Below, piece by piece: positions 818 to 59,657 of a stretch of 64,000 nt of DNA. Numbering within the stretch: the stretch's first letter is position 1; every line of letters starts with the position of its first letter. The translations under genes were made by a program, and so were the position numbers. A model generated the notes under the pieces. The model was not told the DNA's origin, did not search any database, and was given only the letters and a program-made list of their open reading frames with translations. Origin of the DNA: Saccharopolyspora gloriosae (GTDB taxonomy: Bacteria; Actinomycetota; Actinomycetes; Mycobacteriales; Pseudonocardiaceae); NCBI RefSeq assembly GCF_022828475.1, contig NZ_CP059557.1:3891470-3955469 (forward strand). Direction: 5' to 3'.

Positions 818-873
818 CTGGTCGAACGGGCCGTTCACTCCACCGCCCTGGAGTGAACGGCCCGTTCGACCAG
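818..873. terminator. Perfect 25-bp hairpin between convergent genes
   Basis: Two perfectly complementary 25-base arms (818-842 and 849-873) enclose a 6-base loop. Each arm contains the GAACGGSCCGTTC core of the window-wide repeat family, but here arranged with GTTCACTCC facing inward. It lies between the convergent fadD17 and ipdC genes and could terminate both. No U-tract follows, as is usual in high-GC actinobacteria. The flank 876-903 (CCGGGCGAAGG, then GTTCACCTC) resembles sequence near the repeats at 11566 and 21515. Confidence 0.6.
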
Positions 874-932
874 CCATACCGGGCGAAGGAGGCGTTCACC
901 TCAGGAGGCCGGGCGTGCGAGATCAGGCGTGA

Positions 933-2036
933 TCAGCGGAGGTCGTTGAGGCGGGTGAAGGTGTCGTCGGCCTCTCGCAGGAGGGTGGCCATCACCTCTT
1001 CGACGTCGCGGACGGCGTTCATGCGCCCGACGATCTGGCCGACCGGCATGGACACCACGTCGGGGTCGTTGGACCGCGTGATCCGCTGGTGCGCCTCGCT
1101 GACCAGGATGTTCTGCAGCGGCATCGGCAGTGGCGACGGCGCGTCCCGCTCGCTCCACGCCTCGGTCCAGCGGGTTTTGAGCAACCGTGCCGGTTTCCCC
1201 GTGTAGATGCGGGTGCGCACGGTGTCGCTGGAATCGGCGGCCAGCAGCGCCCGCTGCATCGCCGACTCCCCCACCGTCTGCGTGTACTCCTCGGTCGCCA
1301 GCCAGTACGACCCCATCCACGCCCCGCTCGCCCCGAGCGCCAGCGCGGCCGCGACCTGACGTCCGGAGCCGATGCCGCCCGCGGCCAGCACCGGAACCTC
1401 CGCGCCCACGGCGTCCACGATCTCCGGCACGAGCACCATCGTGGCGATCTCCCCGGTGTGCCCGCCCGCCTCGTGCCCTTGGGCCACCACGATGTCCACG
1501 CCCTTGTCGACGTGCCTGCGGGCGTGCTCGGCCTTGCCCGCCAGCGCCGCGACGAGGATGTCGTGCTCGTGAGCGCGTCCGATCACGTCCGGCGGCGGCG
1601 AGCCGAGCGCGTTCGCGATCAGCTTCACCGGGTGCTTGAGCGCCACGTCCACGTGCGAGCGGGCGACCGAGTGCAGCCAGCCGAGCACCGCATCACCCTG
1701 GCGCTCGTCGTCGGGAAGCTCCGGAACCCCGAGCTCGCTCAGCGTCCGGCGCACGAATTCCCGGTGCTCGTCCGGAATCATCGCGTTCAGGTCCACATCG
1801 GACCCTTCGGTGGGCACCGTGGACGGCATCACCACGTCCACGCCGTAAGGCCGCCCGCCGGTGTTCTCGTCCATCCAGTCCAGCACCGAGTCCAGTTCCT
1901 CGGCGTCGTTGAACCGCACGCAGCCGAGCACGCCCAGGCCGCCCGCACGGCTGATGGCGGCCGCGACGTGCTCGGACGGGGTGAATCCGACGATCGGGTG
2001 CTCGATGCCTAGCTGATCGCAGAGGGCAGTGCGCAT
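933..2036 (-). CDS. ipdC: Nitronate monooxygenase-family flavoprotein, IpdC-like
   Basis: A 367-residue FMN TIM-barrel protein of the 2-nitropropane dioxygenase family, close to mycobacterial IpdC (Rv3553). IpdC takes part in opening the last steroid rings (HIP-CoA pathway), where it is thought to act as a flavin-dependent oxidoreductase on 5-hydroxy-HIC-CoA. Visible family motifs are QGHEAGGHTG (186-195), AAGGIGSGRQ (218-227, phosphate loop) and GASGAWMGS (235-243). The chosen ATG overlaps the stop of fadD19 (TGATG), so the two are translationally coupled and share the KstR-type promoter at 3700. A longer reading frame upstream exists but lacks homology. Assignment is by family and context. 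Confidence 0.8.
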   Translation of the reverse strand: MRTALCDQLGIEHPIVGFTPSEHVAAAISRAGGLGVLGCVRFNDAEELDSVLDWMDENTGGRPYGVDVVMPSTVPTEGSDVDLNAMIPDEHREFVRRTLSELGVPELPDDERQGDAVLGWLHSVARSHVDVALKHPVKLIANALGSPPPDVIGRAHEHDILVAALAGKAEHARRHVDKGVDIVVAQGHEAGGHTGEIATMVLVPEIVDAVGAEVPVLAAGGIGSGRQVAAALALGASGAWMGSYWLATEEYTQTVGESAMQRALLAADSSDTVRTRIYTGKPARLLKTRWTEAWSERDAPSPLPMPLQNILVSEAHQRITRSNDPDVVSMPVGQIVGRMNAVRDVEEVMATLLREADDTFTRLNDLR

Positions 2037-3688
2037 CAGGACTTCCTTTCGGCCGCGTCGGCCACCGCGGCGGTGCCCGGCTGCTTCACGGCGTTCGGTT
2101 CGTGCTGTTCGGCATGCGTGCAGGCCCAGCGGTAGTCCGGCTTGCCGCTCGGCGACCGGCGCACCTTCGCGGCCAGCCAGAGCTTCCGGGGCACCTTGTA
2201 GCCGGCGATGTGCCTGCGCGCGTGCGCTTCCAGCTCGGCCCACGCCGGTTCGCCACCGTTCCTGGTCTGCACGACCGCGGCGACGCACTGTCCGAGCCGT
2301 TCGTCGGGGACGCCGAACACCAGCGCGTCGAACACGTCGGGGTGCGCCTTGAGCACGCCCTCGACCTCCTCGGGGTAGACCTTCTCCCCGCCGGTGTTGA
2401 CCGACATCGACCCGCGGCCCAGCATCGTGACCGTGCCGTCGGACTCGTAGCGCGCGTAGTCACCGGGCACGACGTAGCGGGTGCCGTCGATCTCCACGAA
2501 CACCGAGCCCGACTTGTCGGGATCGTTGTAGTAGCCCAGCGGCACGTGCCCGGACCGGGCCAGCAGGCCGACCTCGGTGGAATCGGCGGGAAGCAGCCGG
2601 CCGTCGGGGCCGATGATCGCGGTGGCGGAGTCCGCTTTCACCCGTGGACCACCCGTCCGCGTGCCGCCTTTGCCGAGCACGCCGATGCCGCTGAATCCGG
2701 TCTCGGAGCTCCCGATGGAATCGGTGAGCAGCACGTTCGGCAGCGCATCCAGGTACTGCTCCTGCACCGACGGCGAGAACAGCGCTGCGCTGCTGGAGAT
2801 CGCGACCAGCGAGGACACGTCGTAGGTGCCCTCGTGCAGCGCCTCGATCAGCGGGCGGGCCATGGCGTCTCCGGTGATGGCCAGGACGTGCACCCCGTGA
2901 CGCTCGATCGCCCGCCAGGTCTCGTGCGCGTCGAACTCCGGGAGGATGACGACGGTGCTGCAGGCGAACAGGTTGCCGAACGCGGCCCACTGCGCGGCGC
3001 CGTGGATGAAGGGTGCGGCGGGTAATCGCACCAGGCCGCCGTTGGCGGCTCCGTCGCGGGCCTGCTGCCATTCGTCGGCCATCGGCTCGCCGGTCATGAA
3101 GTCGATGCCGCCGCCGAGGGTGCGCCAGACGTCCTCGTGGCGCCACATCACGCCTTTCGGATTGCCCGTCGTGCCACCGGTGTAGAGCAGGAACAGGTCG
3201 TCGTCGGAGCGGGCCGGGAAGTCTCGTTCCGGCGAGGAGTCCGCCAACGCGGATTCGTAGGAGATTCCGCCGTGGCCGGTGAAGTCCTGGTCGCTGCCGT
3301 CCTCCAGGACCAGCACGTTGCGCAGGTCCGGCGGCAGCGCCTCGGCGGCCCGGTCGCTGTAGCGGCGCTCGTGCACCAGTGCCGCCAGGTCCGCGTCCTG
3401 GTAGATGTAGCGCAATTCCGCTGCGACGTAGCGATAATTGATGTTGACCGCCACCGCGCGCAACTTGTACGCGGCGAGCATCGACTCCAGCGCCTCGATG
3501 CGGTTGCGGGTGTGCACACCGATGTGCGAGCCCCGGCCGAGCCCTTGCTGAGCCCAGTAGTGCGCGAGCCGGTTCGATCGGCGTTCCAGTTCGGCGAAGG
3601 TGACCCGGTCCTCGCCGCAGATCACGGCGACGCGCTCGGGTGTCAGGTCGACGGCGTGCTCGAAAAGATCCGCGATGTTGTGTGCCAC
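2036..3688 (-). CDS. fadD19: Steroid-CoA ligase, FadD19-like
   Basis: A 550-residue adenylate-forming ligase, almost the length of mycobacterial FadD19 (548). FadD19 attaches CoA to the C26 carboxylate of oxidised cholesterol side chains (3-oxo-cholest-4-en-26-oate). The P-loop [10 protein letters not shown] lies at about 170-179, and the C-terminal [10 protein letters not shown] segment carries the expected Lys. The GTG at 3688 is chosen because it begins the family N-terminus ([11 protein letters not shown]). The frame stays open further upstream, but that extension runs back through the operator and antisense to echA19. The operator is 12 bases upstream of the start, and echA19 is transcribed divergently, the arrangement found in M. 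tuberculosis (Rv3515c/Rv3516). Confidence 0.88.
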
Positions 3689-3699
3689 CCGATCGAAAC

Positions 3700-3713
3700 T
3701 AGAACATGTTATC
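3700..3713. promoter_or_regulatory. KstR-type operator, fadD19/echA19
   Basis: TAGAACATGTTATC matches the KstR half-site pattern TnnAACnnGTTnnA at every fixed base except the last. It lies between the divergent fadD19 and echA19 genes, so one repressor site could control both. KstR releases DNA on binding steroid acyl-CoA; the regulator gene itself is not in the window. Confidence 0.75.
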
Positions 3714-3772
3714 GTCCGAGGCAACGGGCCGATCGGTTCATGTTGCACCGCACTGAATTCCCGGAGGAATCC

Positions 3773-4591
3773 ATGCCCACAACCCCTCCGCACGAACCCG
3801 CCCAGACCGCCGAGGAACCCGATTGCCTGGTCGAGCGCCGCGGGGCGGTGCTGGTGGTGACGCTGAACCGGCCGCACGCTCGCAACGCGCTGTCCGCCGA
3901 GATGATGGCGATCATGAAGACCGCCTGGGACGAGGTCGACGGCGACGACGAGATCCGGGCCTGCGTGCTCACCGGAGCGGGCGGCGCGTTCTGCGCGGGC
4001 GCCGACCTCAAGGCGATGACCAGCAGCCACCCCGGCGACACCACCAGCGGCCGGGACCTGTCGGTGATCGAGCCGCTCCTGAAGGGCCGCAGGCTGACGA
4101 AACCGCTGATCGCGGCCGTGGAAGGCCCGGCCGTCGCGGGCGGAACCGAGATCCTGCAGGGCACCGACATCCGCGTCGCCGGACGCGGTGCGCGTTTCGG
4201 CGTCTCCGAGTGCAAGTGGGGCCTGTTCCCGTTGGGCGGTTCGGCGGTGCGGCTGCCGCGCCAGATCCCGTACACGCTGGCCGCCGAGATCCTGCTGACC
4301 GGCAGGCATCTGACCGCCGACGAGGCCAAGGAGATCGGGCTCATCGGTCGCGTCGTCCCGGACGGCGAGGCGCTGAGCACCGCCCTGGAACTGGCCGAGG
4401 CCGTGGCCGCCAACGGCCCGCTGGCGGTCCGGGCGATTCTGCGGACCATGCGCGATACCGAGGGAATGCCGGAGAACGAAGCGTTCCAGGTCGACACCCG
4501 GCTCGGCCTGGAGGTGTTCCGCAGCGCCGACGCCAAGGAAGGCCCGCGCGCGTTCGCCGAGAAGCGCACCCCGAGGTTCCACGGGAACTGA
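3773..4591 (+). CDS. echA19: Enoyl-CoA hydratase, EchA19-like
   Basis: A 272-residue crotonase-fold enzyme most like EchA19, which hydrates the C22-C23 double bond of steroid-CoA esters during side-chain beta-oxidation. Both catalytic glutamates are present: Glu126 in GGTEILQ and Glu146 in GVSECKWG. The oxyanion-hole segment FCAGADL is at about 73-79. The ATG at 3773 follows a good ribosome site (CCCGGAGGAATCC). The longer open frame back to 3137 is antisense to fadD19 and is not coding. The gene stands alone on its strand under the 3700 operator and meets the next gene tail to tail. Confidence 0.87.
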
Positions 4592-4600
4592 CGCACGAGC

Positions 4601-4632
4601 GGGCCGTTCGCCCCGGCTGGGGCGAGCGGCCC
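4601..4632. terminator. Hairpin between convergent genes
   Basis: A 14-base stem (4601-4614 with 4619-4632) with one non-Watson-Crick position and a GGCT loop lies between the convergent echA19 and acyl-CoA ligase genes. The arms (GGGCCGTTCGCCCC) look like a degenerate relative of the GAACGGNCCGTTC family. Confidence 0.45.
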
Positions 4633-4642
4633 GTCCAGCGCG

Positions 4643-6172
4643 TCACGAGTACTGATCTTTGAGCTTTCGCTTGTACAGCTTGCCGTTCGGATCTCGGGGA
4701 AGCTGCTCGGTGAAATCGATGTTGCGCGGGAGTTTGAACTTCGCGAGCTTCTCGGTGGCGAACTCCAGCAGCTCCGCGGCCAGTTCGGCGCCGCCCGCGC
4801 AGCCCGCCGCCGGCTGCACCACGGCCTGCACCTGCTCGCCCCAATCCTGGTGCGGCACGCCGAACACGGCGATGTCCGCGACCTTCGGGTGAATCGACAA
4901 CACGTTCTCGATCTCGGCCGGGTAGATGTTCACCCCACCTGAGATGATCATGTCGCTCTTCCGGTCCCGCAGGTACAGATAGCCGTCCTCGTCCAGGTAG
5001 CCCACATCGCCGAGGGTGAACAGGTCACCGACCCGGGCGCTGCGGGTCTTCTCCGGATCCTGGTGGTACTCGAACTTGGACGTGCCCATCCGCATGTAGA
5101 CCGTGCCGAGCTCGCCCGGCGGCAGCTCCGCGCCGTCATCACCGAGCACCTTCACCACCGAACCCGGCCACGCCTGCCCGACCGAGCCCGGTTTGCGCAG
5201 CCACTCCTGCGCGGGGATCACGGTTCCGCCGCCTTCGGTCGCCGCGTAGTACTCGACCACCACCGGCCCCCACCAGTCGAGCATCCGCCGCTTCACCTCG
5301 ATCGGACACGGCGCGGCACCGTGGATCGCCGCGCGCAGCGAGGACACGTCGTAGCGGTCGCGCACCTCGTCCGGCAGCGCGAGCAGGCGGTGGAACTGCG
5401 TGGGAACCATGTGCGTGTGAGTCACCCGGTGCCGCTCGATCAGCTCGAGCATCCGCTCCGGATCCCACCGGTCCATCAGCACCGCCGGATGGCCCAGCTG
5501 GATGGAAATGCTCACGAAGTTCAGCACCGCCGTGTGATACAGCGGCGACCCGCACAGGTGCACGTGCCCGTCGAACGCCTGGATTCCGAAGATCCCGAAG
5601 AATCCCTGGGACTGCGCCGGAACCTCGTCGGGATCGGCGCCGGAGAGCGCGCGGCGCACCCCTTTCGGACGACCCGTCGTGCCGGAGGTGTAGAGCATCG
5701 GCGAGCCCGCGGTCCGCACGTCCGGACGCGCGACGGGCTCGCCCGCACCGAGTTCGGCGAGTCGCCGGAAACCGGAGACCTCCCCTGCCGCGAAGCAGCG
5801 ATCGCCGGGCAGGCCGGCCAGCTTCGCCGCTTCCGTCGCGGCACCGGCGAAGCGTTCGTGCGCGAGGAACGCCTTCGCCCCGCTGTCCTCGACGATGTAG
5901 GCGACCTCCGCACCGACCAGGTGCCAGTTCACCGTGACGACGTAGAGCCCGGTCTGCATCGCGGCGAAGTACGCCGCGAGCAGCTCGGCACCGTTGGGCA
6001 GCATCAGCACGATGCTGTCGCCGGGCTCCAGGCCCATCGCCTGCAGGCCGCGGCCGATCCGGTCGGCGTCGGCGGCCAGCGCCCCGTACCCGATCTCCTC
6101 GCCGTCCGGGGTGACCAGGGCCTTGCGGTCCGGATGTTCCGCTGCGATCTTCCAGAGTCCGATTGCTGTCAC
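4643..6172 (-). CDS. Acyl-CoA synthetase (AMP-binding), steroid locus
   Basis: A 509-residue class I adenylate-forming CoA ligase. The P-loop YTSGTTGRPKG is at 161-171, the GDVGYLDEDGYLYLRDRKSD hinge and Asp region are intact, and RDPNGKLYKRKL near the end carries the catalytic Lys. The GTG at 6172 is preceded by CAGGAGTGCGCC, a good ribosome site. The overall sequence is nearer to FadD4/bile-acid-CoA-ligase-type enzymes than to FadD19, so no symbol is given. It lies downstream of the F420-type oxidoreductase gene with a KstR-type site just before it. It may activate another steroid side chain or a ring fragment; the substrate cannot be read from sequence. Confidence 0.8.
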   Translation of the reverse strand: MTAIGLWKIAAEHPDRKALVTPDGEEIGYGALAADADRIGRGLQAMGLEPGDSIVLMLPNGAELLAAYFAAMQTGLYVVTVNWHLVGAEVAYIVEDSGAKAFLAHERFAGAATEAAKLAGLPGDRCFAAGEVSGFRRLAELGAGEPVARPDVRTAGSPMLYTSGTTGRPKGVRRALSGADPDEVPAQSQGFFGIFGIQAFDGHVHLCGSPLYHTAVLNFVSISIQLGHPAVLMDRWDPERMLELIERHRVTHTHMVPTQFHRLLALPDEVRDRYDVSSLRAAIHGAAPCPIEVKRRMLDWWGPVVVEYYAATEGGGTVIPAQEWLRKPGSVGQAWPGSVVKVLGDDGAELPPGELGTVYMRMGTSKFEYHQDPEKTRSARVGDLFTLGDVGYLDEDGYLYLRDRKSDMIISGGVNIYPAEIENVLSIHPKVADIAVFGVPHQDWGEQVQAVVQPAAGCAGGAELAAELLEFATEKLAKFKLPRNIDFTEQLPRDPNGKLYKRKLKDQYS

Positions 6173-6213
6173 GGCGCACTCCTGTTCCCAGGTGCTGACA
6201 ATGCCCACCAAGC

Positions 6214-6227
6214 TAGAACGTGTTTCA
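6214..6227. promoter_or_regulatory. KstR-type operator before acyl-CoA ligase
   Basis: TAGAACGTGTTTCA fits TnnAACnnGTTnnA exactly. It overlaps the stop codon of the upstream oxidoreductase gene (6225-6227) and is 42 bases before the ligase start. This gives the ligase its own regulated promoter even though the gene pair looks like an operon. Confidence 0.75.
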
Positions 6228-7289: not shown

Positions 7290-7366
7290 GACGAACCTCC
7301 TCGCATCCGGTGGCGACCGGGTGGCCGCGGCCGTCCCCATCGTGCTCCGAACATTGCCGCCTTGGC

Positions 7367-7380
7367 GAGAACATGTTTCA
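7367..7380. promoter_or_regulatory. KstR-type operator, F420 oxidoreductase/DUF35 gene
   Basis: GAGAACATGTTTCA matches the KstR pattern except at its first base. It lies in the 100-base gap between two divergent genes and ends only 9 bases before the GTG at 7390, which suggests a leaderless or very short-leadered transcript on that side. Confidence 0.7.
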
Positions 7381-7389
7381 CTTAGCGGC

Positions 7390-8355: not shown

Positions 8356-8393
8356 GCCCACCGGAGAACCGAACATCGTGAGGGAGCGCGAGA

Positions 8394-11503: not shown

Positions 11504-11604
11504 CCTTTGACCACTCACCGGTCAAAGGAGGCATTCACCTCACCGGCCCCGCCAGGTGAATGTCGCCTTTGACCGGTCCTATCGGGCAACGGGGACATCG
11601 ACCT
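11504..11604. repeat. Nested inverted repeats, second repeat type
   Basis: The gap after the F420 gene holds two hairpins: CCTTTGACC/GGTCAAAGG (11504-11512 with 11520-11528) and CATTCACCT/AGGTGAATG (11532-11540 with 11554-11562). Then comes CCTTTGACCGG followed by CGGGCAACGGGGAC (11566-11594), which recurs nearly identically at 21515-21546. A related segment is at 876-903. These may be parts of the same mobile or terminator-like family as the GAACGGNCCGTTC palindromes. Confidence 0.5.
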
Positions 11605-21449: not shown

Positions 21450-21514
21450 GTTTATGTCGAGCACTCGAACCCTGGACATCCCCGGCCCCACTGCCCCGCG
21501 TTCAGGCGAGTGGC

Positions 21515-21615
21515 CCCTTTGACCGGCGCGACCGGGCAACGGGGACGTTCACCTGACCTCGCCGGCGGAGTGAACGGCCCGTTCGACCGGTAGGACCGGG
21601 CGAAGGAAGCAGTGA
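21515..21615. repeat. Repeat-family remnants downstream of hsaF
   Basis: CCTTTGACCGG and CGGGCAACGGGGAC (21515-21546) copy the block at 11566-11594. They are followed by GAGTGAACGGCCCGTTCG (around 21569-21586), a half-unit of the 47-base palindromes, and then another CCGGGCGAAGG. The fragments lie directly after hsaF and before the hsaA promoter, where they could terminate hsaE-G-F transcription. Confidence 0.5.
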
Positions 21616-21626
21616 CCTTCGGGGAA

Positions 21627-34065: not shown

Positions 34066-34562
34066 GTGAACGGCCCGTTCGTCCAAGGAGATTGGTCGAA
34101 CGGTCCGTTGACTCGAAACCGGAGCCTCCGCAGCGGCTGGGCGGCCCAGATCGACATGGGTGAACGGACCGTTCGTCCAACTAGATGGGACGAACAGTCC
34201 GTTCACCTCCACAGACCGCTCACCCACGGGATCCGGAGCGGAGTGAACGGACCGTTCGCCCAAGGAGGTTGGGCAAACGGTCCGTTCATTCAGAACCCGC
34301 TGCTGCGCGCCGGGCGCCGGGACGCGCGGGCTCTGGTAGCTGATCGGAGTGAACGGACCGTTCGTCCAACTAGATGGGACGAACAGTCCGCTCACCTCCA
34401 CAGACCACTCGCCCACGGACCCCGGAACGGAGTGAACGGACCGTTCGCCCAATCCCGTTGGACGAACGGTCCGTTGACTCCGCTCACGTCGTCTCGGTCC
34501 GGGTGCCTGTTCTGAGTGAACGGACCGTTCGCCCAAGAGAACTGGACGAACGGTCCGTTCAC
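34066..34562. repeat. Array of six 47-bp palindromic repeats
   Basis: Six hairpin units, each 47 bases, lie at 34066-34112, 34160-34206, 34243-34289, 34349-34395, 34432-34478 and 34516-34562. Each reads GTGAACGGACCGTTCG, a variable middle of about 15 bases usually flanked by CCAA and TTGG, then CGAACGGTCCGTTCAC or a close variant. Within each arm GAACGGNCCGTTC is itself a palindrome. Units 2-3 and 4-5, with the sequence between them, are two copies of one block of about 130 bases. The last unit contains the stop codon of the MFS gene. No protein-coding character: open frames through it merely translate the repeat. Confidence 0.85.
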
Positions 34563-35740
34563 CTCGGCTCGTTCTCCGCGGATGCGCCGTCGAGCGGGAG
34601 GCTGCGGGCGAGGAATGCGGTGCTCGCGAGGCCGATGGCGGTGGCGAGCAGCACTCCGGCCGCGCCGACTCCGCTTGCCACCAGCCCCACCGCGCCGGGC
34701 AGCACGACCTGACCGGCACGGTTTCCGGTGAGGCGCAACGACATCGCGCGCCCGCGAAGTCCCGGCGGGGCCGACTCCGCCAGCCACGACATCGTCAACG
34801 GCTGTCCCACGCCGAGCCCGAGCCCCGCGACGAGCACGGCGACCGCGAGCGCCCAGATCGGCACCGGGGCCGCTGTGAGGGCGAGTCCGACCGCCGAGGC
34901 GGTGAGGCTCAGGACCAGCAGCCGACGGCGACCGAGCAACCGCGTGCTCCGCCCGAGGAAGAACCGCGACACCATCGACGCCACCGCCCGCAGGCCCAGC
35001 AGCCCACCGACCACTCCGGAGGCGATCTCGCGTTCCGCCCCGAGCGCGGGCAGGTAGACCAAGGACAGGTCGACCGCCGCCAAGACCACGCAGCTCGTGC
35101 ACAGCGCCGGGATCAAGCCGGGCAGCCGCAACAGTTCCCGCACTCCTGGGGAGCCCTTCGGCGCGGATCCCGACGATGGTGTGCCGCTGGTGATGCCGAA
35201 GGAACACACGAGCAGCGCCGCCGCGAGCGCGGTGGCGCCCCAGAAGATCGGCGTGGTGTCCGGGATGGCCTGCGCCCCGCCGAACACGACGATCATCAGC
35301 GGCCCCGCCGCCTGTCCTAGGGAGGCGGCGAACGTGTAGTAGCCGAACGCGGCGTCCAGCCGGGCCGAGGACGTCATGTTCGCGACCAGTGCCTGCTGGC
35401 CGATGACCGAGCACAGATGTCCCGTGCCCAGCAGCACGTTGCCCGCGACCAGGCCCAGCACCGAGTCGCCGAGCAGCAGGAAGCACGCGCCTGACGCGCA
35501 CAGCAGCGCTCCACCGGCGATCATGACGCGTCGCTCGCCCAGCCGATCCACGATGTGCCCGGCGGGCAACGCCAGCACCAGCGGGACCAGCGCGAAGCTG
35601 CCGGAGAGCACTCCCAGCCAGGACGCGGGCACGTCGAGCTCCAGCGCGCGGTAGGTCGTGGCCGGACGAAGCACGAACGTGACGACCTGCGTCAACACCG
35701 CGTGCATCAGCAGGACGGAGATCCGCCGATCGAACTTCAC
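34559..35740 (-). CDS. MFS transporter
   Basis: A 393-residue major facilitator superfamily protein with about 12 hydrophobic segments and a long hydrophilic Gly/Ser/Pro loop in the middle (near 185-200). LPAGHIVDRLGERRV (about 58-72) is the loop 2-3 motif. It is most like drug or metabolite efflux permeases; the substrate is unknown. Translation appears to start at GTG 35740. The stop codon (34559-34561) lies inside the outermost arm of the adjacent 47-base repeat, so insertion or growth of the repeat has set the protein's end. Confidence 0.82.
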   Translation of the reverse strand: MKFDRRISVLLMHAVLTQVVTFVLRPATTYRALELDVPASWLGVLSGSFALVPLVLALPAGHIVDRLGERRVMIAGGALLCASGACFLLLGDSVLGLVAGNVLLGTGHLCSVIGQQALVANMTSSARLDAAFGYYTFAASLGQAAGPLMIVVFGGAQAIPDTTPIFWGATALAAALLVCSFGITSGTPSSGSAPKGSPGVRELLRLPGLIPALCTSCVVLAAVDLSLVYLPALGAEREIASGVVGGLLGLRAVASMVSRFFLGRSTRLLGRRRLLVLSLTASAVGLALTAAPVPIWALAVAVLVAGLGLGVGQPLTMSWLAESAPPGLRGRAMSLRLTGNRAGQVVLPGAVGLVASGVGAAGVLLATAIGLASTAFLARSLPLDGASAENEPR

Positions 35741-42567: not shown

Positions 42568-42607
42568 GGAACGGGCCGCTCACCCCACCCGGCGAACGGC
42601 CCGTTCC
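42568..42607. terminator. Degenerate palindromic repeat between convergent genes
   Basis: GGAACGGGCCGCTCA (42568-42582) can pair with CGAACGGCCCGTTCC (42593-42607) with a mismatch. It is a short relative of the 47-base repeat family and lies between convergent genes, so a bidirectional terminator role is plausible. Confidence 0.45.
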
Positions 42608-46406: not shown

Positions 46407-46867
46407 GTGAACGGACCGTTCGTCCCATCTGGTTGGGCAAACGGTCCGCTCACTCCGCCAACGCTCCGGCGAACGATGTCCACACTCGGAAACGAGTGAA
46501 CGGACCGTTCGTCCCATCTAGTTGGGCAAACGGTCCGCTCACTCGACAGGCCTTCGGAGTCAACGGACCGTTCGACCAACAAGACTGGACGAACGGTCCG
46601 CTCACTCCACAAGCCCGCCGAAGTCAACGGACCGTTCGACCAACCTGATCGGACAAACGGTCCGTTCACTCCATCCCGGCGTCCGCGGTGAGCTGTGCTG
46701 GGACGACGGGGCTCGCGGGCGCGCTTCGGTTTTGGAGTGAACGGACCGTTTGCCCAATGGGATTGGACGAACAGGCCGTTCACTCCGTCCCACCCCGCTC
46801 GGCCGGAGCCGTCGGCGGGAGTGAGCGGACCGTTTGCCCAATGGGATGGGACGAACGGGCCGTTCAC
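46407..46867. repeat. Second array of six 47-bp palindromic repeats
   Basis: Six 47-base units lie at 46407-46453, 46496-46542, 46559-46605, 46623-46669, 46737-46783 and 46821-46867. They match the array at 34066 in length and arm sequence (GTGAACGGACCGTTCG with CGAACGGTCCGCTCAC or close variants) but differ in the middle. Unlike that array, this one lies between two divergent genes (2H protein and TetR), so it occupies the promoter side of both and cannot be only a terminator. Units 1-2, 3-4 and 5-6 are most alike in pairs. Open frames across it are repeat translations. Confidence 0.85.
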
Positions 46868-47043: not shown

Positions 47044-47796
47044 ATGGTGGTCAGGAAGCGGGATCCGGCGCGGACGCTGGCATTGCTGTGGCGCGCACCG
47101 GAACACCGTTCCCGCAAACCCGGCCTCGGCGCGGACGAGATCGTGCGGGCCGGCATCGCGCTCGCGGATGCCGAGGGGCTCGCCGCGCTGTCGATGCGAG
47201 GTGTCGCCGAACGGCTCGGCGCCGGGACGATGTCGCTCTACACCTACGTGCCCGGCAAGGACGACCTGATCGACGTCATGCTCGACACCGTCTACGGCGA
47301 AACCGAGGCGCCCGGCCCGGACCTCACCGGCTGGCGTGCCAGGCTCGAACATGTGGCGCGGCAGAACTGGGAACTGCACCGCAGGCACCCGTGGACGCTG
47401 GAGATCGCCACCACCCGACCGGTGCTCGGCCCGCAGGAAACCGCGAAGTACGAGCGCGAGCTGCGGACGATCGACGGCATCGGCCTCACCGAGGTCGAGA
47501 TGGATTCCGTGCTGAGCCTGGTGCTCGGCCACGCTCGCACCGCCGCACGCGGTGCGCTGGAGGCGGCGGATGCGGAGCGCCGCACCGGCCTCACCGACGA
47601 GCAGTGGTGGCAGGTGCACGCCCCGCTGCTGGACCGGCTGCTCGATCCGGAGCACTTCCCCACCGCCGCGAAGGTGGGTGGCGCGGCGGGCTCGGCGCAC
47701 GGTGCGGCGAGCAGCGCCGAGCACCACTTCGAGTTCGGCCTGGCGCGCGTCCTCGACGGCGTCGACGTCCTCATCCGATCCCGCGAAACGCCCTGA
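47044..47796 (+). CDS. TetR-family regulator with tetracycline-repressor-type C domain
   Basis: A 250-residue repressor. The helix-turn-helix covers about 28-73, with ALSMRGVAERLGAGTMSLYTYV as its core. The C-terminal part looks like the TetR_C class found in regulators of efflux pumps. It has no adjacent transporter; the nearest gene is a nitroreductase pointing towards it. No palindromic operator apart from the 47-base repeats was seen upstream, so its target is unknown. Confidence 0.82.
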   Translation: MVVRKRDPARTLALLWRAPEHRSRKPGLGADEIVRAGIALADAEGLAALSMRGVAERLGAGTMSLYTYVPGKDDLIDVMLDTVYGETEAPGPDLTGWRARLEHVARQNWELHRRHPWTLEIATTRPVLGPQETAKYERELRTIDGIGLTEVEMDSVLSLVLGHARTAARGALEAADAERRTGLTDEQWWQVHAPLLDRLLDPEHFPTAAKVGGAAGSAHGAASSAEHHFEFGLARVLDGVDVLIRSRETP

Positions 47797-51476: not shown

Positions 51477-51773
51477 TCAGCGCGGCCGGGTGGAGTAGCG
51501 CCACGCACCCCTGCCGGGACGCGGCGCGGCCTGCGCCGGGCCGTGCCGCAGCCGGTCCCCTCGCGAGGCCCAGTACGAAACCGGTGCCTCCGGTTCGGCC
51601 GCTTCGCCGCTCGCGCTGAACGCGGCGAGCGTCGCGGTCAGCGCGGCGATCTCGGCGTCGGTGGGCTTGCCGCGCAGGACGCGCAGCACCGGGCGCCGAT
51701 CCGGGCCGGTGCCGTCGTCCTCGCCGCGCACCACGCTGAGCTCCGGCGGTGCGCCCTCGTCCGAGCTGCTCAT
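51477..51773 (-). CDS. accE: Acyl-CoA carboxylase epsilon subunit
   Basis: A 98-residue AccE-type small subunit. The family core [22 protein letters not shown] lies at about 30-51, and the C-terminal [11 protein letters not shown] with a basic tail is characteristic. It stabilises and activates the AccA3-AccD complex. It lies 13 bases after accD and 112 bases before accA on one strand. Confidence 0.85.
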
Positions 51774-51786
51774 GTTCCGGCCCTCC

Positions 51787-53424: not shown

Positions 53425-53740
53425 CGCTCCTGCGACCCGCCATTCCTTGCTCGTGGACGACTTCCGTGGCCGTGGCCCGGCTCGCCGGTCGCGGCCTCGT
53501 CGCGAGCCGCCCGCACTCCGGGCACTCCGAGGGACCGCGCCGTTGCGCGCCGCCGCACGACCGGAACCCGTACGTCCGCGCCGCCCGGGTCCCCCGTTCG
53601 GAGGTTAGTTCGAGCGCACCCGGCCAGTCAACCGAGAAGTGATCCCGCCCTAGCCTCCATCCAGCCCCAAAAGACCTAGAAAAACGCCGTCCCGGTTGCG
53701 AGAAGTGAACAGCGGCTAGCACGCACGGCACAAGAAGCGC
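53425..53740. other. Gap upstream of accD
   Basis: The 316 bases between the accD start and the next gene's end should hold the carboxylase promoter. I see no clear gene or hairpin. A repetitive C/G-rich patch lies near 53465-53600. Confidence 0.35.
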
Positions 53741-54919
53741 TCATGGACCGCTGGTGAACATGAGTGCCGCGCCGACTCGCCGCACGGCTTCGGGGGCGCG
53801 CACCGTGCCGGTCCGCGCCATGTCGTTGGCCAGCGTCAACGTGGCCTGCACCAGGACTCGCGCGGTGGCCGGATCGAGCTCCGGCCGCACCTCCCGCAGC
53901 AGCGACACCCATTCCGTGACGTATTCGCGCTGGGTCTGCCGCGCCCGGTGCCGTTCATGGTCCGGGAGGTGTCCTACTTCGCCGACCAGAATGTCGATGA
54001 ATCCGCCGTGGTCGAGCGCGAAGGTGATGTAGGACCACAGCAGCTCTCGCAGCGCCTCCCCCGCGTCGCCAGAGCGGACCAGCGTGCGGCCGAGGTCGAT
54101 CTCCAGCCACGCCGAGCCTCGGGTGATCACCGCGTCGAGCAGTTCCTGCTTGCTGGCGAAGTGGTTGTAGACGCTGGGACCGGCGATGCCCACCTCAGCC
54201 CCGATCTCCTCGGTGGTGACGGCCGCGTAGCCGCGTTCGGCGAACAGCCGGGTCGCCGCCGACAACAGCTGCCGCCGCCGAGACGCGCCGCCGCGTTGCA
54301 GCAGCAGCGCGTCGGCGTCCGGGCTCGCGGCGCCACGACCGGAGACCAGCGGCGGCAGGTCGACGATCGTGAACACCACATCCCGCAGCAGCTCCTCGAA
54401 CTGGGCGCGCGGCAGCTCGACGTGGTGGTAGGAGGGACTAGTCAGCGCGCTGAACAGGCACCAGCCGCGGAACCGGGCGTCGTCCTCGCCCAGGTCCGGG
54501 CGCCAGGCCCGCGCGAGGTCGGCGAGCCCGCCCGCGACGACCCGCAGCTGGTTCTTGAGCTCGTCGCGGTCCTCGGCGGGCAGGTGCCGGGCCTCGCGTT
54601 GCCAGAGCACGCCGAGCTCGCGGTGATCGAGCGCGGCCGCGGCCAGTTCGCGCACCACCGCGTCGAGATCGGCCGACCGGGCGTCGAGCACCTGCTCGAA
54701 GGGCTGCAGGTGGGTGAGCACAACGCGCCGCAGCAGCAGCTGCTTGCCCTTGAAGTGCCGGTACAGCGCCGACGGGCCGACTCCGACGGCCTCGGCGATG
54801 TCGCTGACGCCGACCCGCGCGTAGCCCTGTTCGTAGAACAGGCGGGAGGCGGCGGAGAGGATGAGCTCGCGCCGATTTCGCGGGCGGATTCCGCCCGGCC
54901 TCGTCTCCGCCACTGCCAC
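53741..54919 (-). CDS. Tandem double TetR-family regulator
   Basis: A 392-residue protein with two complete TetR units. The first helix-turn-helix (17-62, core VSDIAEAVGVGPSALYRHF) is followed by a ligand domain to about 195. A second DNA-binding module (215-261, core TTEEIGAEVGIAGPSVYNHF) with its own ligand domain follows. Normal TetR proteins have about 200 residues and form dimers, so this may be a built-in pseudo-dimer with two different half-site preferences. It is divergent from an enoyl-CoA-hydratase-like gene and likely controls it. Related double-TetR proteins exist in mycobacteria; ligand and targets are unknown. Confidence 0.83.
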   Translation of the reverse strand: MAVAETRPGGIRPRNRRELILSAASRLFYEQGYARVGVSDIAEAVGVGPSALYRHFKGKQLLLRRVVLTHLQPFEQVLDARSADLDAVVRELAAAALDHRELGVLWQREARHLPAEDRDELKNQLRVVAGGLADLARAWRPDLGEDDARFRGWCLFSALTSPSYHHVELPRAQFEELLRDVVFTIVDLPPLVSGRGAASPDADALLLQRGGASRRRQLLSAATRLFAERGYAAVTTEEIGAEVGIAGPSVYNHFASKQELLDAVITRGSAWLEIDLGRTLVRSGDAGEALRELLWSYITFALDHGGFIDILVGEVGHLPDHERHRARQTQREYVTEWVSLLREVRPELDPATARVLVQATLTLANDMARTGTVRAPEAVRRVGAALMFTSGP

Positions 54920-55123
54920 GACCTCCCGGCACGTCCTCGGCCCGTCACGGTGTTCGCCGCGGCGGTTTCGGCACAGGATAGGCCGCGATTCCGAACGAAC
55001 AGGTCACGCGCGGTGCAAGCCCGCTCACATCTCCGCGATCGTGGATTACAGTCAGTCCTGACCGCCAACCAGGGAGGCGTGCGCGCCACCGGTCAGTCCC
55101 CGAGCCGCAAGGAGAGCCCGGTC

Positions 55124-55918
55124 ATGACGACCTCCGCAGGGATCCGCAGCACCACCGACCACGGCGTGCGCACCGTCCACCTCGCACGACCCGAACTGCG
55201 CAACGCCATGGACGGCGCGATGTTCGCCGCCTACTACACCGCGCTCGTCGAGGCCGACGCCGATCCCGAGGTCCGGGCCATCGTCGTCACCGGCGACGGC
55301 GACTGGTTCTGCAGCGGAGCCGCACCCGACACGCTGCACCTGCTGGCCGGAGATGACGCGCCCGACCTGGAAACCTCGCTCGGGCACCCGCCGCACCTGC
55401 CGATGACCCTGCGCAAGCCGTTGATCGCGGCGATCAACGGTGGAGCCGCCGGGCTCGGGCTCGCCCAAGCGCTGTTCGCCGACGTGCGGTTCCTCGCCGA
55501 CGGCGCCCGGCTGTCCACCGCGTTCAGCAAGCTGGGCCTCATCGGCGAGTACGGCACCGCGTGGCTGCTGCCCAGGCTCGTCGGGGTGGCCTCGGCGATG
55601 GATCTGCTGCTGTCGGCGCGCAAGGTCGAGGCCGCGGAGGCGAAGGAACTCGGCCTGGTGCAGCGCGTGCTGCCACAGCCCGACGTGCTGGCCGCGGCCC
55701 AGGACTACGCCCGCGAACTGGCCGCGAACTGCTCACCCCGCTCGATGGCGGTGATCAAGCAGCAGGTGTGGCGTGGCTTGGATCTCGACGGTCCGCAGGC
55801 CGTCTCGGAGTCGGTGCGGCTGATGGTCGAGTCGCTGAGCGCACCGGATTTCCAAGCGGCAGTGCGCGGTCTCGGGCAGCGCGGCCCGGTGGCATTCCCC
55901 CCTCTCGGTCAGGTGTGA
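55124..55918 (+). CDS. Enoyl-CoA hydratase/isomerase homologue lacking canonical glutamates
   Basis: A 264-residue crotonase-fold protein. The two glutamates of typical hydratases are replaced: the GGGCELA position is GLGLAQA (Ala114) and the second is STAFSKLG (Phe134). A Glu further on (Glu142, IGEYGTAW) may serve another reaction. The oxyanion-hole segments FCSGAAP and GGAAGLG remain, so acyl-CoA binding is likely. The reaction could be isomerisation, hydrolysis or a specialised hydration. The ATG at 55124 has AAGGAGAG upstream. It is divergent from the double TetR gene and precedes the DUF2236 gene. Confidence 0.75.
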   Translation: MTTSAGIRSTTDHGVRTVHLARPELRNAMDGAMFAAYYTALVEADADPEVRAIVVTGDGDWFCSGAAPDTLHLLAGDDAPDLETSLGHPPHLPMTLRKPLIAAINGGAAGLGLAQALFADVRFLADGARLSTAFSKLGLIGEYGTAWLLPRLVGVASAMDLLLSARKVEAAEAKELGLVQRVLPQPDVLAAAQDYARELAANCSPRSMAVIKQQVWRGLDLDGPQAVSESVRLMVESLSAPDFQAAVRGLGQRGPVAFPPLGQV

Positions 55919-56000
55919 GCGATTCCCGTCACGCCCCGAGTGCGCGCGTCGTTGCACAGTCGGAGGGCTCGGCTCGACCGGGCCGCAAGGGAGGTTGGAC

Positions 56001-56909
56001 ATGGCACGCACCTGGCTGCGGCGCATCGCGGAACTGGACCCGGTCACCGACCATCACGAGATCTACCGCATCTCCATCGGCTACGAGTTCCCCTTCGACT
56101 ACCAGCGGGCGCTGGAGTTCGCCCTGTTCCGGACCTATTGCGTGCCGAGCATCTCGGCGCTGCTGGCCGCGACGGGCGAATTCGAGAAGCGCCCCCAGCA
56201 ACGTTACGACGACACCGCGCTGCTGATGGCCGAGATCGCCGAGCACGGCTACGCCTCCGAACGCGGCAAGCAGGCGCTGCGCACCGTCAACCGGGCGCAC
56301 GGGCGCTACGTCATCTCCAACGACGACATGCTCTACGTGCTCTCGACCTTCGTCTACGACCCGATCGACTGGATCGACCGGTTCGGGTGGCGGCCGCTGC
56401 ACCAGCACGAGCGGGATGCGGGCTTCTACTACTTCCAAGCCGTCGGCAAACGCATGGGAATCAAGAACATTCCGCCGACGTACGCCGACTTCCGCCGGTT
56501 CAAGGCGGACTACGAACGCGAGCATTTCCGCTACAACGACACCAACCACATGATCGGCCGCTACACCTTGGACCTGTTCTGCTCGTGGTTCCCGAAGCCG
56601 CTGCGCCCATCGGTGTCGCTGGCGGTCCGGGCACTGCTGGACGAGCCGATGCTCACCGCCTTCGGCTTCCGCGCCGCGCCCGGATGGGTCACCAAGGCGG
56701 CGCACGGCGCGTTGCAGCTGCGCGCGGCCGTGGTGCGGCGGATGCCGGAACGCACCGAGTCCAAGTTGGCGCAGGACTCGGGCAACAGCACCTACCCGAA
56801 TTATCCGCGCGGATACACCCCCGCCGACCTCGGTGCTCCGGCGCCGAGCGGCATCGACCCCAAGTGGCTCCGCTCCGGCGGCTGCCCGGTGCCGCAGGGG
56901 AAGGACTGA
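56001..56909 (+). CDS. DUF2236/MpaB-type oxygenase-like protein
   Basis: A 302-residue DUF2236 protein (the family of fungal MpaB and actinobacterial rubber oxygenase Lcp relatives). Family marks are NRAHGRYVISNDDMLYVLSTF and YDPIDWIDRFGW (about 97-130). Histidines that could hold heme are in RAHGRY, LHQHERD and TNHMIG. It is helix-rich and lacks a signal peptide. MpaB relatives cleave isoprenoid double bonds, which would suit terpenoid or sterol chemistry, but no function is shown. ATG 56001 has GGGAGGTTGGAC before it. Confidence 0.75.
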   Translation: MARTWLRRIAELDPVTDHHEIYRISIGYEFPFDYQRALEFALFRTYCVPSISALLAATGEFEKRPQQRYDDTALLMAEIAEHGYASERGKQALRTVNRAHGRYVISNDDMLYVLSTFVYDPIDWIDRFGWRPLHQHERDAGFYYFQAVGKRMGIKNIPPTYADFRRFKADYEREHFRYNDTNHMIGRYTLDLFCSWFPKPLRPSVSLAVRALLDEPMLTAFGFRAAPGWVTKAAHGALQLRAAVVRRMPERTESKLAQDSGNSTYPNYPRGYTPADLGAPAPSGIDPKWLRSGGCPVPQGKD

Positions 56910-56918
56910 ACGAAGCGG

Positions 56919-56965
56919 GCGAACGGACCGTTCGTCCGATCCCATTGGGCAAACGGTCCGTTCAC
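56919..56965. repeat. Single 47-bp palindromic repeat
   Basis: One unit (GCGAACGGACCGTTCG, then AAACGGTCCGTTCAC as the other arm) lies nine bases after the DUF2236 gene and before the convergent ars operon. Its placement is that of a terminator; arms match the six-copy arrays. Confidence 0.75.
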
Positions 56966-57067
56966 TCCACAACCGAAGCACGCCCGCGAGCCTTGTCGCC
57001 GGGAGCTTTTGCGCGCCACCGCCGGCGCGGTGTTCTCGCGCCGCAGCTCCCGGCCGCGAGTCGTTGA

Positions 57068-57484
57068 TCAGCGCCTGTCCAGTTCGGCCAGGAGGCCGCG
57101 TACTCGCTGGTCGATGTCGTCTCGGATGACTCGGACGTCCTCGATCCGCTTGCCTGCCGGGTCGGTCAGCTCCCAGTCGAGGTACCGCTTTCCGGGGAAG
57201 ACGGGGCAGGCGTCACCGCAGCCCATCGTGATCACAACGTCAGCCGCGACTACTGCTCCGGTCGTGAGTTTCCTCGGCACCTCCTGCGAAAGGTCGATGC
57301 CGAGTTCGAGCATCGCCTCGTAGACGGCCGGGTTGATGGTCTCGGCGGGGTCCGACCCGGCGGAACGAACGACGACCTTGCCGTGGGCATGGTGTTGCAG
57401 CAGCGCGGCGGCCATCTGGGAGCGGCCCGCGTTGTGCACGCAGACGAACAGAACCTCGGGCAAGGCGTCTCCTGGGAAGGTCAT
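57068..57484 (-). CDS. arsC: Arsenate reductase, low-molecular-weight phosphatase type
   Basis: A 138-residue arsenate reductase of the tyrosine-phosphatase fold. The active loop CVHNAGRS starts at Cys15, and Cys89 and Cys93 (GCGDACP) form the redox pair. In actinobacteria such enzymes use thioredoxin or mycothiol/mycoredoxin. It makes arsenite for export by Acr3, whose stop overlaps its start (ATGA). It is last of the arsR-acr3-arsC operon. Confidence 0.9.
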   Translation of the reverse strand: MTFPGDALPEVLFVCVHNAGRSQMAAALLQHHAHGKVVVRSAGSDPAETINPAVYEAMLELGIDLSQEVPRKLTTGAVVAADVVITMGCGDACPVFPGKRYLDWELTDPAGKRIEDVRVIRDDIDQRVRGLLAELDRR

Positions 57485-58578
57485 CGAGCAGGCTCTCCGC
57501 CCGGCGCCGGCTGCGGGCCGGTGAACCAGCGGCGTGCGGCCAGGGACACGTAGACGAGGGCCACGAGCACCGGGACTTCGATGAGAGGCCCGACGACCCC
57601 GGCGAGTGCTTGCCCGCTGGTCACGCCGAACGTGGCGATGGCGACCGCGATGGCGAGTTCGAAGTTGTTTCCGGCCGCGGTGAACGACAGCGTGGCCGCC
57701 CGTTCGTAGCCCAGGCCGATCACCTTGCCCAGCGCGAAGGAACCCGCCCACATCACCGCGAAGTAGGCCAGCAGCGGCAGCGCGATCCGCGCCACGTCCA
57801 CCGGGTGGGCCGTGATCTGCTCACCTTGCAACGCGAACAGGATCACGATGGTGAACAGCAACCCGTAGAGGGCTACAGGGCCGATCCGGGGCAGGAACCG
57901 GCTCTCGTACCAGTCGCGCCCCTTGGCGCGTTCACCGAACCTGCGGGTGAGGTACCCGGCCACCAGCGGGATCCCGAGGAAGATCAGCACGGATTCGGCG
58001 ATCTGCCAGGGTGATGCTTCGAGCCCGACCGTGGGCAGCCCGAGCCATCCCGGAAGGACGCTGAGGTAGAACCACCCCAGCCCCGCGAAGGCCACGACCT
58101 GGAACACCGAGTTCAGCGCGACCAGCACGGCAGCCGCTTCCCGATCGCCGCACGCCAGATCATTCCAGATGATCACCATCGCGATGCAGCGCGCCAATCC
58201 CACGATGATCAACCCGGTGCGGTACTCCGGCAGATCCGGAAGGAAGGTCCAGGCCAGCGCGAACATCAACGCCGGACCAATGATCCAGTTCAGCACCAAC
58301 GACGAGACCATGAGTCGCTTGTCGCCGGTGACCGTCTCCAGGCGGTCGTAGCGAACCTTGGCCAGAACCGGGTACATCATCACCAGCAGGCCCAGCGCGA
58401 TCGGCAACGAGATTCCATCGAGCTGCACCGCGTTCAGCACCGGCCCGAGCCCGGGAACCCACCGCCCGGCCAACAGGCCCACGAGCATCGCCGCGCCGAT
58501 CCACACGGGCAGGAACCGATCCAACGTCGAGAGCTTCCCGGCGACCGCCACACCCCCGCGTTCCCGGATGCTCGTCAT
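57481..58578 (-). CDS. acr3: Arsenite efflux permease Acr3
   Basis: A 365-residue membrane protein of the ACR3 class with about ten hydrophobic helices. The conserved Cys-bearing segment GLARCIAMVIIWNDLACGD (about 131-150) holds the arsenite-handling Cys, and TAAGNNFELAIAVAIATFG (about 300-318) is the second family signature. It exports As(III). It is joined at both ends by ATGA overlaps to arsR and arsC. Confidence 0.92.
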   Translation of the reverse strand: MTSIRERGGVAVAGKLSTLDRFLPVWIGAAMLVGLLAGRWVPGLGPVLNAVQLDGISLPIALGLLVMMYPVLAKVRYDRLETVTGDKRLMVSSLVLNWIIGPALMFALAWTFLPDLPEYRTGLIIVGLARCIAMVIIWNDLACGDREAAAVLVALNSVFQVVAFAGLGWFYLSVLPGWLGLPTVGLEASPWQIAESVLIFLGIPLVAGYLTRRFGERAKGRDWYESRFLPRIGPVALYGLLFTIVILFALQGEQITAHPVDVARIALPLLAYFAVMWAGSFALGKVIGLGYERAATLSFTAAGNNFELAIAVAIATFGVTSGQALAGVVGPLIEVPVLVALVYVSLAARRWFTGPQPAPGGEPAR

Positions 58579-58943
58579 GCCGACACCGCCGCATCCCCGG
58601 CCGGCGCCAGCGCCTCCGAGACCAGGTTCAACGTCTCCGGCCGCACCCGGTAGTAGATCCACGTTCCCCGGCGCTCACCGTCGATCACCCCGGCTTCTCG
58701 GAGGATCTTCAAGTGGTGCGAAATAGTCGGCCCGGACAGCTCGAACGCACCTGTCAGATCGCACACGCACGCTTCACCGCCCTCGTGCGACGCGATCAGC
58801 GACAACAGCCGCAGCCGCACCGGCTCGCCGATCGCTTTGAACACTCGCGCGAGCGCCACAGCCTGAGCTTCCCCGAGCGGTTCCCGCAGCACCGGAGAGC
58901 CGCACAGGGCCGCATCGTCCGGCGGCACCTCTTGTTTCGACAT
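58575..58943 (-). CDS. arsR: ArsR-family arsenic-sensing repressor
   Basis: A 122-residue winged-helix repressor. The sensing site ACVCDLTG (Cys59, Cys61) matches the ELCVCDL type, with an extra Cys14 that could be the third ligand. The recognition helix is LSGPTISHHLKIL (69-81). It starts the arsR-acr3-arsC operon and is divergent from arsI. The 84-base gap (58944-59027) must hold its operator; TTGACGCCCATCGAA at 58953-58967 is a weak inverted candidate. Confidence 0.9.
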   Translation of the reverse strand: MSKQEVPPDDAALCGSPVLREPLGEAQAVALARVFKAIGEPVRLRLLSLIASHEGGEACVCDLTGAFELSGPTISHHLKILREAGVIDGERRGTWIYYRVRPETLNLVSEALAPAGDAAVSA

Positions 58944-59027
58944 GCTTCTATATTGACGCCCATCGAACCAACAGCGCAAGCTAGGCCCATCAGGCTGTTT
59001 CGATGTACGTCTGACCAAGGAGAGGTC

Positions 59028-59465
59028 ATGCCACGGATGCAGCTCGCGCTACGAGTCGGCGACCTTGAAGGATCGATCGCGTTCTACTCGAAGTTGCTCG
59101 GTAGCGAACCGGCCAAGCTCCGGCCCGGCTATGCGAACTTCGCCGTTGCCGAACCGCCGCTGAAGTTGGTCTTACTGGAAGGCGAACCCGGCCAGGACAC
59201 CGGTCTTGATCACCTCGGAGTCGAAGTCGACAGCACCGATGAGGTCAACGCCGCCACCGACCGGCTCAGCGCACTCGGGTTGTTCACCGAAGTCGAAGAC
59301 GACACCACCTGTTGCTACGCCCGCCAAGACAAGGTCTGGGTGCACGGCCCCGGCCGGGAACCGTGGGAGGTCTACGTCGTCAAGGCCGATTCCGGAAGCT
59401 TCGGCCCCGAGCAGCAGCCCGAACCCTGCAGCACCGACAACAAGCATTCCCTGATCGATCACTGA
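59028..59465 (+). CDS. arsI: ArsI-type C-As lyase (glyoxalase fold)
   Basis: A 145-residue single-domain VOC protein. The vicinal cysteines Cys95-Cys96 (TTCCYARQ) bind trivalent methylarsenical, and Gln5, His62 and Glu114 fit the Fe(II) ligand set. ArsI breaks the carbon-arsenic bond of methyl- and aryl-arsenicals, giving arsenite that Acr3 exports. It is also called CadI in mycobacteria. The ATG at 59028 has AAGGAGAGGTC upstream. It is controlled with arsR across the divergent promoter. Confidence 0.88.
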   Translation: MPRMQLALRVGDLEGSIAFYSKLLGSEPAKLRPGYANFAVAEPPLKLVLLEGEPGQDTGLDHLGVEVDSTDEVNAATDRLSALGLFTEVEDDTTCCYARQDKVWVHGPGREPWEVYVVKADSGSFGPEQQPEPCSTDNKHSLIDH

Positions 59466-59530
59466 CTTCTGTACCTGCACTGGTCGGAGAACCCGCGCGG
59501 ACATTGCCGCACCTCAGCGAACTCCGGCGA

Positions 59531-59657
59531 GAACAACGGACCGTCCGATCCGCTCGGACGGACGGTCCCTTCACTCCGCACCACCCCAACACCGACCGCA
59601 GCGGATTCGAGTGAACGGACCGTTCGCCCAATCCCCTTGGACGAACGGTCCGTTCAC
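59531..59657. repeat. Degenerate plus complete 47-bp palindromic repeat
   Basis: A complete unit is at 59611-59657 (GTGAACGGACCGTTCG with CGAACGGTCCGTTCAC). A shorter, diverged relative at about 59531-59575 has ACGGACCGTCCGATC with GGACGGACGGTCC. They lie between the convergent arsI and acyl-CoA ligase genes, eight bases from the latter's stop. Confidence 0.7.

Follow-up and report, generated by a model that had tools for sequence, protein, structure and literature searches.

A REP/BIME-like family of 47-bp extragenic palindromes in Saccharopolyspora, spaced in helical phase and possibly read as duplex DNA

A stretch of 64,000 nucleotides of the Saccharopolyspora gloriosae genome (positions 3,891,470-3,955,469 of a 6.88-Mb contig; hereafter the window) carries members of a family of extragenic palindromes, each 47 bp long with two 13-bp sub-palindromes. 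The genome holds 217 such units (41-position core, at most 3 mismatches; the reversed control gave 0). Neighbouring units are spaced with a period of about 11 bp, so that a whole number of helical turns separates the arms that face each other, and the arms are conserved without overall covariation of the helix that they could form. Arm conservation without helix covariation, taken together with the helical phasing, makes a protein acting on duplex DNA more likely, and on the basis of these sequence comparisons we hold with about even confidence that the units form a family like the repetitive extragenic palindromes (REPs) and bacterial interspersed mosaic elements (BIMEs), read as duplex DNA by a putative protein that would link neighbouring units on one helix face. 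This kind of family is already known; as far as the literature search reaches, the phasing is the new feature. The titles and abstract openings covered by that search turned up no description of the 47-bp family or of phased REPs, and the main text of PMC12306157 does not mention Saccharopolyspora, Pseudonocardiaceae or Amycolatopsis.

Helical spacing of neighbouring units

The distances between neighbouring units within 150 bp of each other have modes near 62, 73, 85, 95, 107 and 118 bp. The period scans of the first three genomes used 2000 jittered sets as the null. In S. gloriosae itself (G000; n=72) the best period was 11.0 bp with R=0.556, a value reached by 0/2000 of the jittered sets. 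Of the five congeners that were compared (G001-G005), G001 gave 11.1 bp with R=0.305 (n=80; 26/2000) and G002 11.6 bp with R=0.417 (n=56; 3/2000), and pooling of the three genomes (n=208) yielded a best period of 11.15 bp with R=0.409 (0/2000). The neighbour distance minus 30, that is the distance between the right-arm centre of one unit and the left-arm centre of the next, is approximately a whole multiple of 11. In PMC1762422, the fits to in-vivo lac-loop data have a helical repeat of 11.60, of 11.08 or, in the absence of HU, of 10.95 bp, so that a period of 11.1 bp is to be expected for supercoiled DNA in cells; the bootstrap interval given below also agrees with this range.

The linkers between the units of S. 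gloriosae are mostly unrelated (7 of the 2415 pairs lie above 99.9% of the null, the top five within one array), and with the similar-linker pairs removed the phasing persists (n=52, R=0.468 at 11.0 bp). When one spacing was taken per linker cluster, the mean R was 0.470 and the bootstrap period 10.8-11.5 bp (n=91); this clustering is coarse, 92 of the 206 linkers being in one cluster, and the dissimilar-linker and per-array tests are independent of it. With one spacing per array, the mean R was 0.402 (Rayleigh p about 7e-8, n=102); for S. gloriosae alone it was 0.560 (n=43, p about 1e-6). The phasing is present in all types of gap (R 0.380 in tandem, 0.422 in convergent and 0.392 in divergent gaps), and two control distances, i.e. 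from the stop codon to the first unit (n=213, p 0.15) and from the last unit to the next start (n=111, p 0.54), are unphased.

For replication, G003 and G005, the two other independent genomes of the genus, were searched whole for exact facing-end pairs, with period and phase fixed from the first three species. This provided 46 distances in G003, one of the matches probably being no unit pair, and 15 in G005. Under the phase of those three species, the V-test gave p values of 7e-6 and 9e-4, respectively, for a period of 11.1 bp (together 5e-8) and of 3e-4 and 7e-3 for one of 11.0 bp (together 1e-5); there was no agreement at 10.5 bp. Reduction to one distance per locus left p values of 0.0016 (G003, n=26) and 0.0038 (G005, n=15), and a free period scan was significant for G003 (1/1000) and for the two genomes together (0/1000).

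Arm conservation and position relative to genes

Conservation within the unit is position-specific: A4, C6, G7 and C18 are near 100%, A5 is at 90%, A9 at 86% and C15 at 83%. Over stem pairs 1-21 of 393 units, both-sided Watson-Crick changes numbered 74 versus 74.8 expected for independent arms, with a deficit at 15/33 (2 vs 7.4 expected) and at 17/31 (27 vs 36.8 expected). In a ranking of mutual information over 1081 places, the two centre pairs came at 7 and 10, pair 17/31 at 23, 2/46 at 36 and 9/39 at 51, and the remaining stem pairs, which are the majority, came low, at 96-895. The units fold strongly as single strands (DNA parameters), with a mean RNA energy of about -28 kcal/mol; the sense strand in tandem gaps holds 256 G.U-type and 229 A.C-type pairs, which is no clear excess. 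Because overall covariation and a clear sense-strand G.U excess are both lacking, selection is not evidently acting on an RNA hairpin, and we conclude that it is probably the sequence, more than the pairing of the stem, that is conserved, to which pairing may still make some contribution. There is no T tract past the palindrome, the aggregate flanks being T/C, C, C/G and G/A.

The arms themselves are nearly symmetric. The centre of the unit (positions 22-26) is asymmetric, pair 22/26 being T.G or C.A in 224 of the 393 units and Watson-Crick in 57, and each unit thereby has a direction. Where the centres of adjoining units could be scored, 60 pairs had the same orientation and 17 the opposite one.

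The position of the units relative to genes was determined with a simple codon-usage caller that was made for this analysis and not compared with the annotation. Units were scored by counting matches over 36 fixed consensus positions, on which scale the reversed sequence of 1.344 Mb of the S. gloriosae genome never exceeded 23/36. In these same 1.344 Mb, taken as an unselected sample (323, 322, 314 and 128 gene calls; unit score at least 24; gaps of at least 47 bp), units occupied 19 of the 139 convergent, 20 of the 431 tandem and 4 of the 178 divergent gaps. A larger sample, which includes regions chosen for units (score at least 27), gave 77/306, 83/957 and 24/430, respectively. The first-pass annotation of the window had placed the palindromes between genes, and this holds: random scatter inside genes did not occur, with 393 of the 394 placed units of the larger sample intergenic and one within a gene call, and with 95 of 97 intergenic and two in gene calls at the looser threshold of the unselected sample. 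In tandem gaps the first unit begins a median of 24 bp past the stop codon, and in 75 of the 83 it is closer to the 3' end of the upstream gene. Arrays of 2-6 units make up 53/83 of the unit-bearing tandem, 43/77 of the convergent and 15/24 of the divergent gaps.

The duplex-DNA reading and its rivals

If the units are read as duplex DNA, each arm, centred on GAACGGNCCGTTC, would be a binding site for the protein in question, and a protein bound to a unit's right arm would contact the one bound to the left arm of the following unit whenever both lie on the same face of the helix. Through such contacts, in negatively supercoiled DNA, rows of units could become a nucleoprotein structure behind genes that would bound transcription or supercoiling. 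A similar role is assumed for BIMEs in E. coli, to which gyrase, IHF or Pol I bind. Units would be gained and lost within arrays, with dispersal by a route other than the REP-associated tyrosine transposase (RAYT) and with deletion between direct units as the simplest part of the turnover. More tentatively, and with clearly less confidence, one may envisage a chromosome-wide code of DNA architecture, in which a dedicated dimeric protein on GAACGGNCCGTTC-type arms would link same-face units, hundreds of otherwise unrelated linkers would, through selection on spacing, preserve a record of the helical repeat in vivo (about 11.1 bp), and the occurrence of the 13-mer in other genera (in pairs 30-31 bp apart or in dense rows) would mark the protein as older than the genus.

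The REPs are among the known systems that come closest to the family. In the descriptive sense, the first-pass suggestion of a REP-like element was right: the units are extragenic, palindromic, present in about 200 copies, arranged in arrays and biased toward 3' ends. In Escherichia coli and Pseudomonas the REP/BIME elements are likewise short, palindromic, extragenic and arrayed, number more than 100 copies per genome and are protein-bound (PMC2817692). The present family differs from them in its length of 47 bp with two sub-palindromes, in the absence of Y1_Tnp from four unit-rich genomes and in the mostly equal orientation of neighbours, whereas the units of BIMEs alternate. It differs also in the 11-bp spacing period, of which no description for REPs was found (the terms spacing, helical and phase had no match in PMC2817692). 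With looping operator pairs of the LacI and AraC type it shares facing sites that are whole turns apart and a period close to the in-vivo helical repeat (PMC1762422); those operators, however, are a few sites at one promoter, whereas here there are hundreds of sites behind genes, for a putative protein.

Several observations weigh against the duplex-DNA reading. Second neighbours are unphased (n=93, R 0.04); G005 by itself was not significant in the free period scan (227/1000); orthologous arrays differ in spacing, and some of their distances (100 and 104, for example) are out of phase; and the two arms within one unit are 30 bp, or about 2.7 turns, apart. The facing arm centres are, moreover, one of several readings of the phased points, as a reference point moved by 11 bp would fit equally well. 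Double changes exceed expectation at 2/46 (8 vs 1.7), 9/39 (10 vs 4.1) and 14/34 (3 vs 0.8). Finally, TetR, the sole neighbour that was tested as the putative binding protein, fails as a candidate: its gene at 47044-47796, beside the second array of the window, is present in genomes that lack the family and was not found at 1e-40 in two that carry it (G004 and G005). The binding protein that the first-pass annotation had deduced from arm conservation has become more likely by the lack of helix covariation and by the phasing, and is still a putative one.

The main rival, which we consider rather unlikely, takes the family for a non-autonomous mobile element: an enzyme held by an existing unit would insert the next copy whole turns away, and the phasing would be a scar without host function. 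The turnover between relatives bears on this. Of 126 conserved neighbouring gene pairs in S. gloriosae and G001, units were found in both species at 8, in S. gloriosae only at 4 and in G001 only at 1, and of 108 in S. gloriosae and G002 at 11, 2 and 1, respectively. These numbers are biased in favour of the shared class, to the detriment of the duplex-DNA reading as well, because some of the sequence taken from the relatives had been selected for its units. At 17 of the 19 gene pairs with units in both species the unit counts disagree, and this, together with the mostly unrelated linkers of different arrays and the prevalence of same-orientation neighbours, would suit phased insertion. Against it stands the comparison of 200 kb of G004 and G005 (99% identity), in which all but one of 24 units are common (23 of 24); the exception falls on a break in the alignment, and no clean empty site was seen. 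Furthermore, in the cases viewed the extra unit comes with an unrelated linker and not as a bare 47 bp. For instance, at own_B 73945 (a 143-bp gap) the single unit of the relative aligns to both units of S. gloriosae and the linker is extra, a pattern compatible with deletion between direct units or with the arrival of a unit together with its linker. No candidate enzyme was found in a search that was aimed at Y1_Tnp only.

Small, repeated, non-coding inverted repeats are also reminiscent of miniature inverted-repeat transposable elements (MITEs), from which the family differs in that neither a parent transposon nor a duplication of the target nor a clean empty site was seen. The possibility that the units are the ends of a larger transposon was discarded: solo arms (at most 3 mismatches) had 40 matches in 2.864 Mb, no parent element emerged, and paired solo arms were traced to an insertion sequence (IS) that had inserted into palindromes. 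An IS with an HTH_38 and rve transposase (presumably IS30-like) lies at 2,236,781-2,238,340 of G000, with further full copies at 2,155,295, 2,341,152, 2,380,564 and L187:12682; in the part of the genome viewed it interrupts a GTGAAYG-type palindrome in four of its five full copies, one of these palindromes being degenerate, and the fifth copy adjoins one.

The units could, alternatively, be bidirectional transcription terminators or stabilisers of mRNA 3' ends that work as RNA hairpins. We judge this improbable. In its favour, they are GC-rich inverted repeats just past stop codons with an excess in convergent gaps, they fold strongly as single strands, and at positions 795-933 relatives have other GC-rich hairpins where S. 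gloriosae has units. They depart from bidirectional intrinsic terminators, on the other hand, by their conserved arm sequence, their arrays, the missing T tract and the lack of overall covariation, and the G.U count is without clear bias relative to A.C. A single hairpin would suffice for termination, RNA hairpins give no cause for phasing at 11 bp, and at 75946-76287 a T-tailed hairpin stands separately alongside three units. A test for units replacing other hairpins gave p 0.07. The terminator-like nature proposed in the first pass keeps some probability because of the position just past stop codons.

A further reading, of low probability, regards the units as recombination sites or hot spots that anchor rearrangement. 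The block 57068-59465 (four gene calls, including LMWPc, SBF and Glyoxalase families) has another place in G001 and G002. In S. gloriosae units lie on both of its flanks and also in the gap between its former neighbours, which corresponds to the place that it occupies in those two genomes; this is a single case, however, and repeats recombine without being sites.

Least probable is that these are classic REPs moved by RAYT (TnpA-REP), as the first-pass annotation had proposed to look for. Size, number, palindromy, extragenic place and arrays agree with this, but Y1_Tnp (PF01797) had 0 matches in G000-G003 although these carry 113-252 units each, and the same search was positive in 7 of 37 genomes; RAYT as the mobiliser was ruled against on this ground. 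Among five Y1_Tnp loci examined (in G004, G005 and G010), one has a unit nearby. There, at 2,447,842-2,448,204 of G005 (L058), an insertion of about 1.76 kb with a Y1_Tnp gene lies about 30 bp past a unit, and contig 21 of G004 has this unit without the insertion; the unit is thus the older of the two.

Should the phasing hold, it would separate the RNA-hairpin and duplex-DNA-site readings of repeated extragenic palindromes, which have long been confused, by inspection of genomes only. It would point to an abundant protein of DNA binding or topology in actinomycetes that produce antibiotics, and genomes could serve as a ruler of the helical repeat in the living cell, with half-turn spacers as a simple bench test. 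The family would, in addition, be a REP-like one whose spread is without RAYT.

Spread in the genus and the units of the window

The five congeners carry 252, 186, 113, 146 and 149 units in the 41-position core search; absence from related genomes, which the first-pass annotation had named as an argument against a defined element, did not occur within the genus. Any core match was found in 9 of the 60 relatives searched. The exact 47-mer pattern occurs in 36 stretches of a named-species collection, 35 of them in Saccharopolyspora sp. NFXS83 and one in Saccharopolyspora sp. HNM0986, and the array region had no match in plasmid or phage collections, so that spread by plasmids or phages is unsupported; all three collections may omit records near the S. 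gloriosae genome. The exact generic form GTGAAYG...CRTTCAC has 95, 83, 81, 51, 3 and 4 matches in the six genomes of the genus and 1 match in one other genome of the 60, i.e. it is nearly confined to Saccharopolyspora. Exact 13-mer pairs 12-24 bp apart were found in 40 of the 297 genomes of the bacterial family and 13 of its 46 genera (control 0), with cores that vary by clade. Among pieces from other genera, which were picked for containing the motif, those of G026, G087 and G270 (one genus) have 16-18 single 13-mers per intergenic row, with steps of e.g. 23, 31-33 and 41-42 bp (L208-L211), and one such dense row lies between FTSW_RODA_SPOVE and Glyco_transf_28 genes (cell-wall genes of the ftsW/murG type); the examples viewed in G149, G180 and G144 are single hairpins behind genes. 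Along the S. gloriosae chromosome the density of units is uneven, with no GAACGG-type unit scoring at least 27 in 2.0-2.4 Mb, and no nameable pattern of density with chromosome position was seen (dnaA at 781).

In the window, GAACGGNCCGTTC (a 13-mer, at most 2 mismatches) has 53 matches versus 6.65 expected and at most 13 in 100 shuffles. The claim of at least fourteen complete 47-bp palindromes with conserved arms proved correct, 14 units scoring 33-36/36, well beyond the reversed control, next to five weaker 47-mers at 24-31/36. Their spread over the gaps of the window was seen too broadly: the units are intergenic, but 12 of the 14 sit in two six-unit arrays and only four gaps are occupied altogether. 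The first array comprises the units at 34066..34112 (34/36), 34160..34206 (35/36), 34243..34289 (34/36), 34349..34395 (34/36), 34432..34478 (35/36) and 34516..34562 (36/36), the last of which overlaps by 4 bp with the 3' end of a gene call at 34559-35740 on the minus strand. The second, in a divergent gap, comprises those at 46407..46453, 46496..46542, 46559..46605 and 46623..46669 (34/36 each) and at 46737..46783 and 46821..46867 (33/36 each); the orthologous gap holds three units in G001 and two in G002. The two other units lie in convergent gaps, singly at 56919..56965 (34/36) and at 59611..59657 (36/36), the latter in the neighbourhood of a degenerate relative at 59528..59574 (24/36). The window had no match to an Rfam family at gathering score and no tRNA.

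Of the degenerate relatives listed in the first pass, those near 818, 21569 and 59531 are indeed 47-mers, whereas those at 4601 and 42568 are shorter hairpins. Two hybrid units of a wider family, at 792..838 (29/36) and 853..899 (31/36), each combine a GAACGG-type arm with a GTGAATGCCTCC-like one; in this adjoining pair (792-899) the unlike arms pair across the units and not within one unit. A third hybrid unit of the wider family lies at 21570..21616 (28/36), and units of the wider family with the other arm type lie at 21506..21552 (25/36, found by the generic scan as well) and 11556..11602 (generic scan, 25/28 positions). The hairpin at 4597..4636, noted in the gap comparison, has related 13-mers 27 bp apart, and that at 42569..42606, with its 13-mers 25 bp apart, is also present in G001 and G002.

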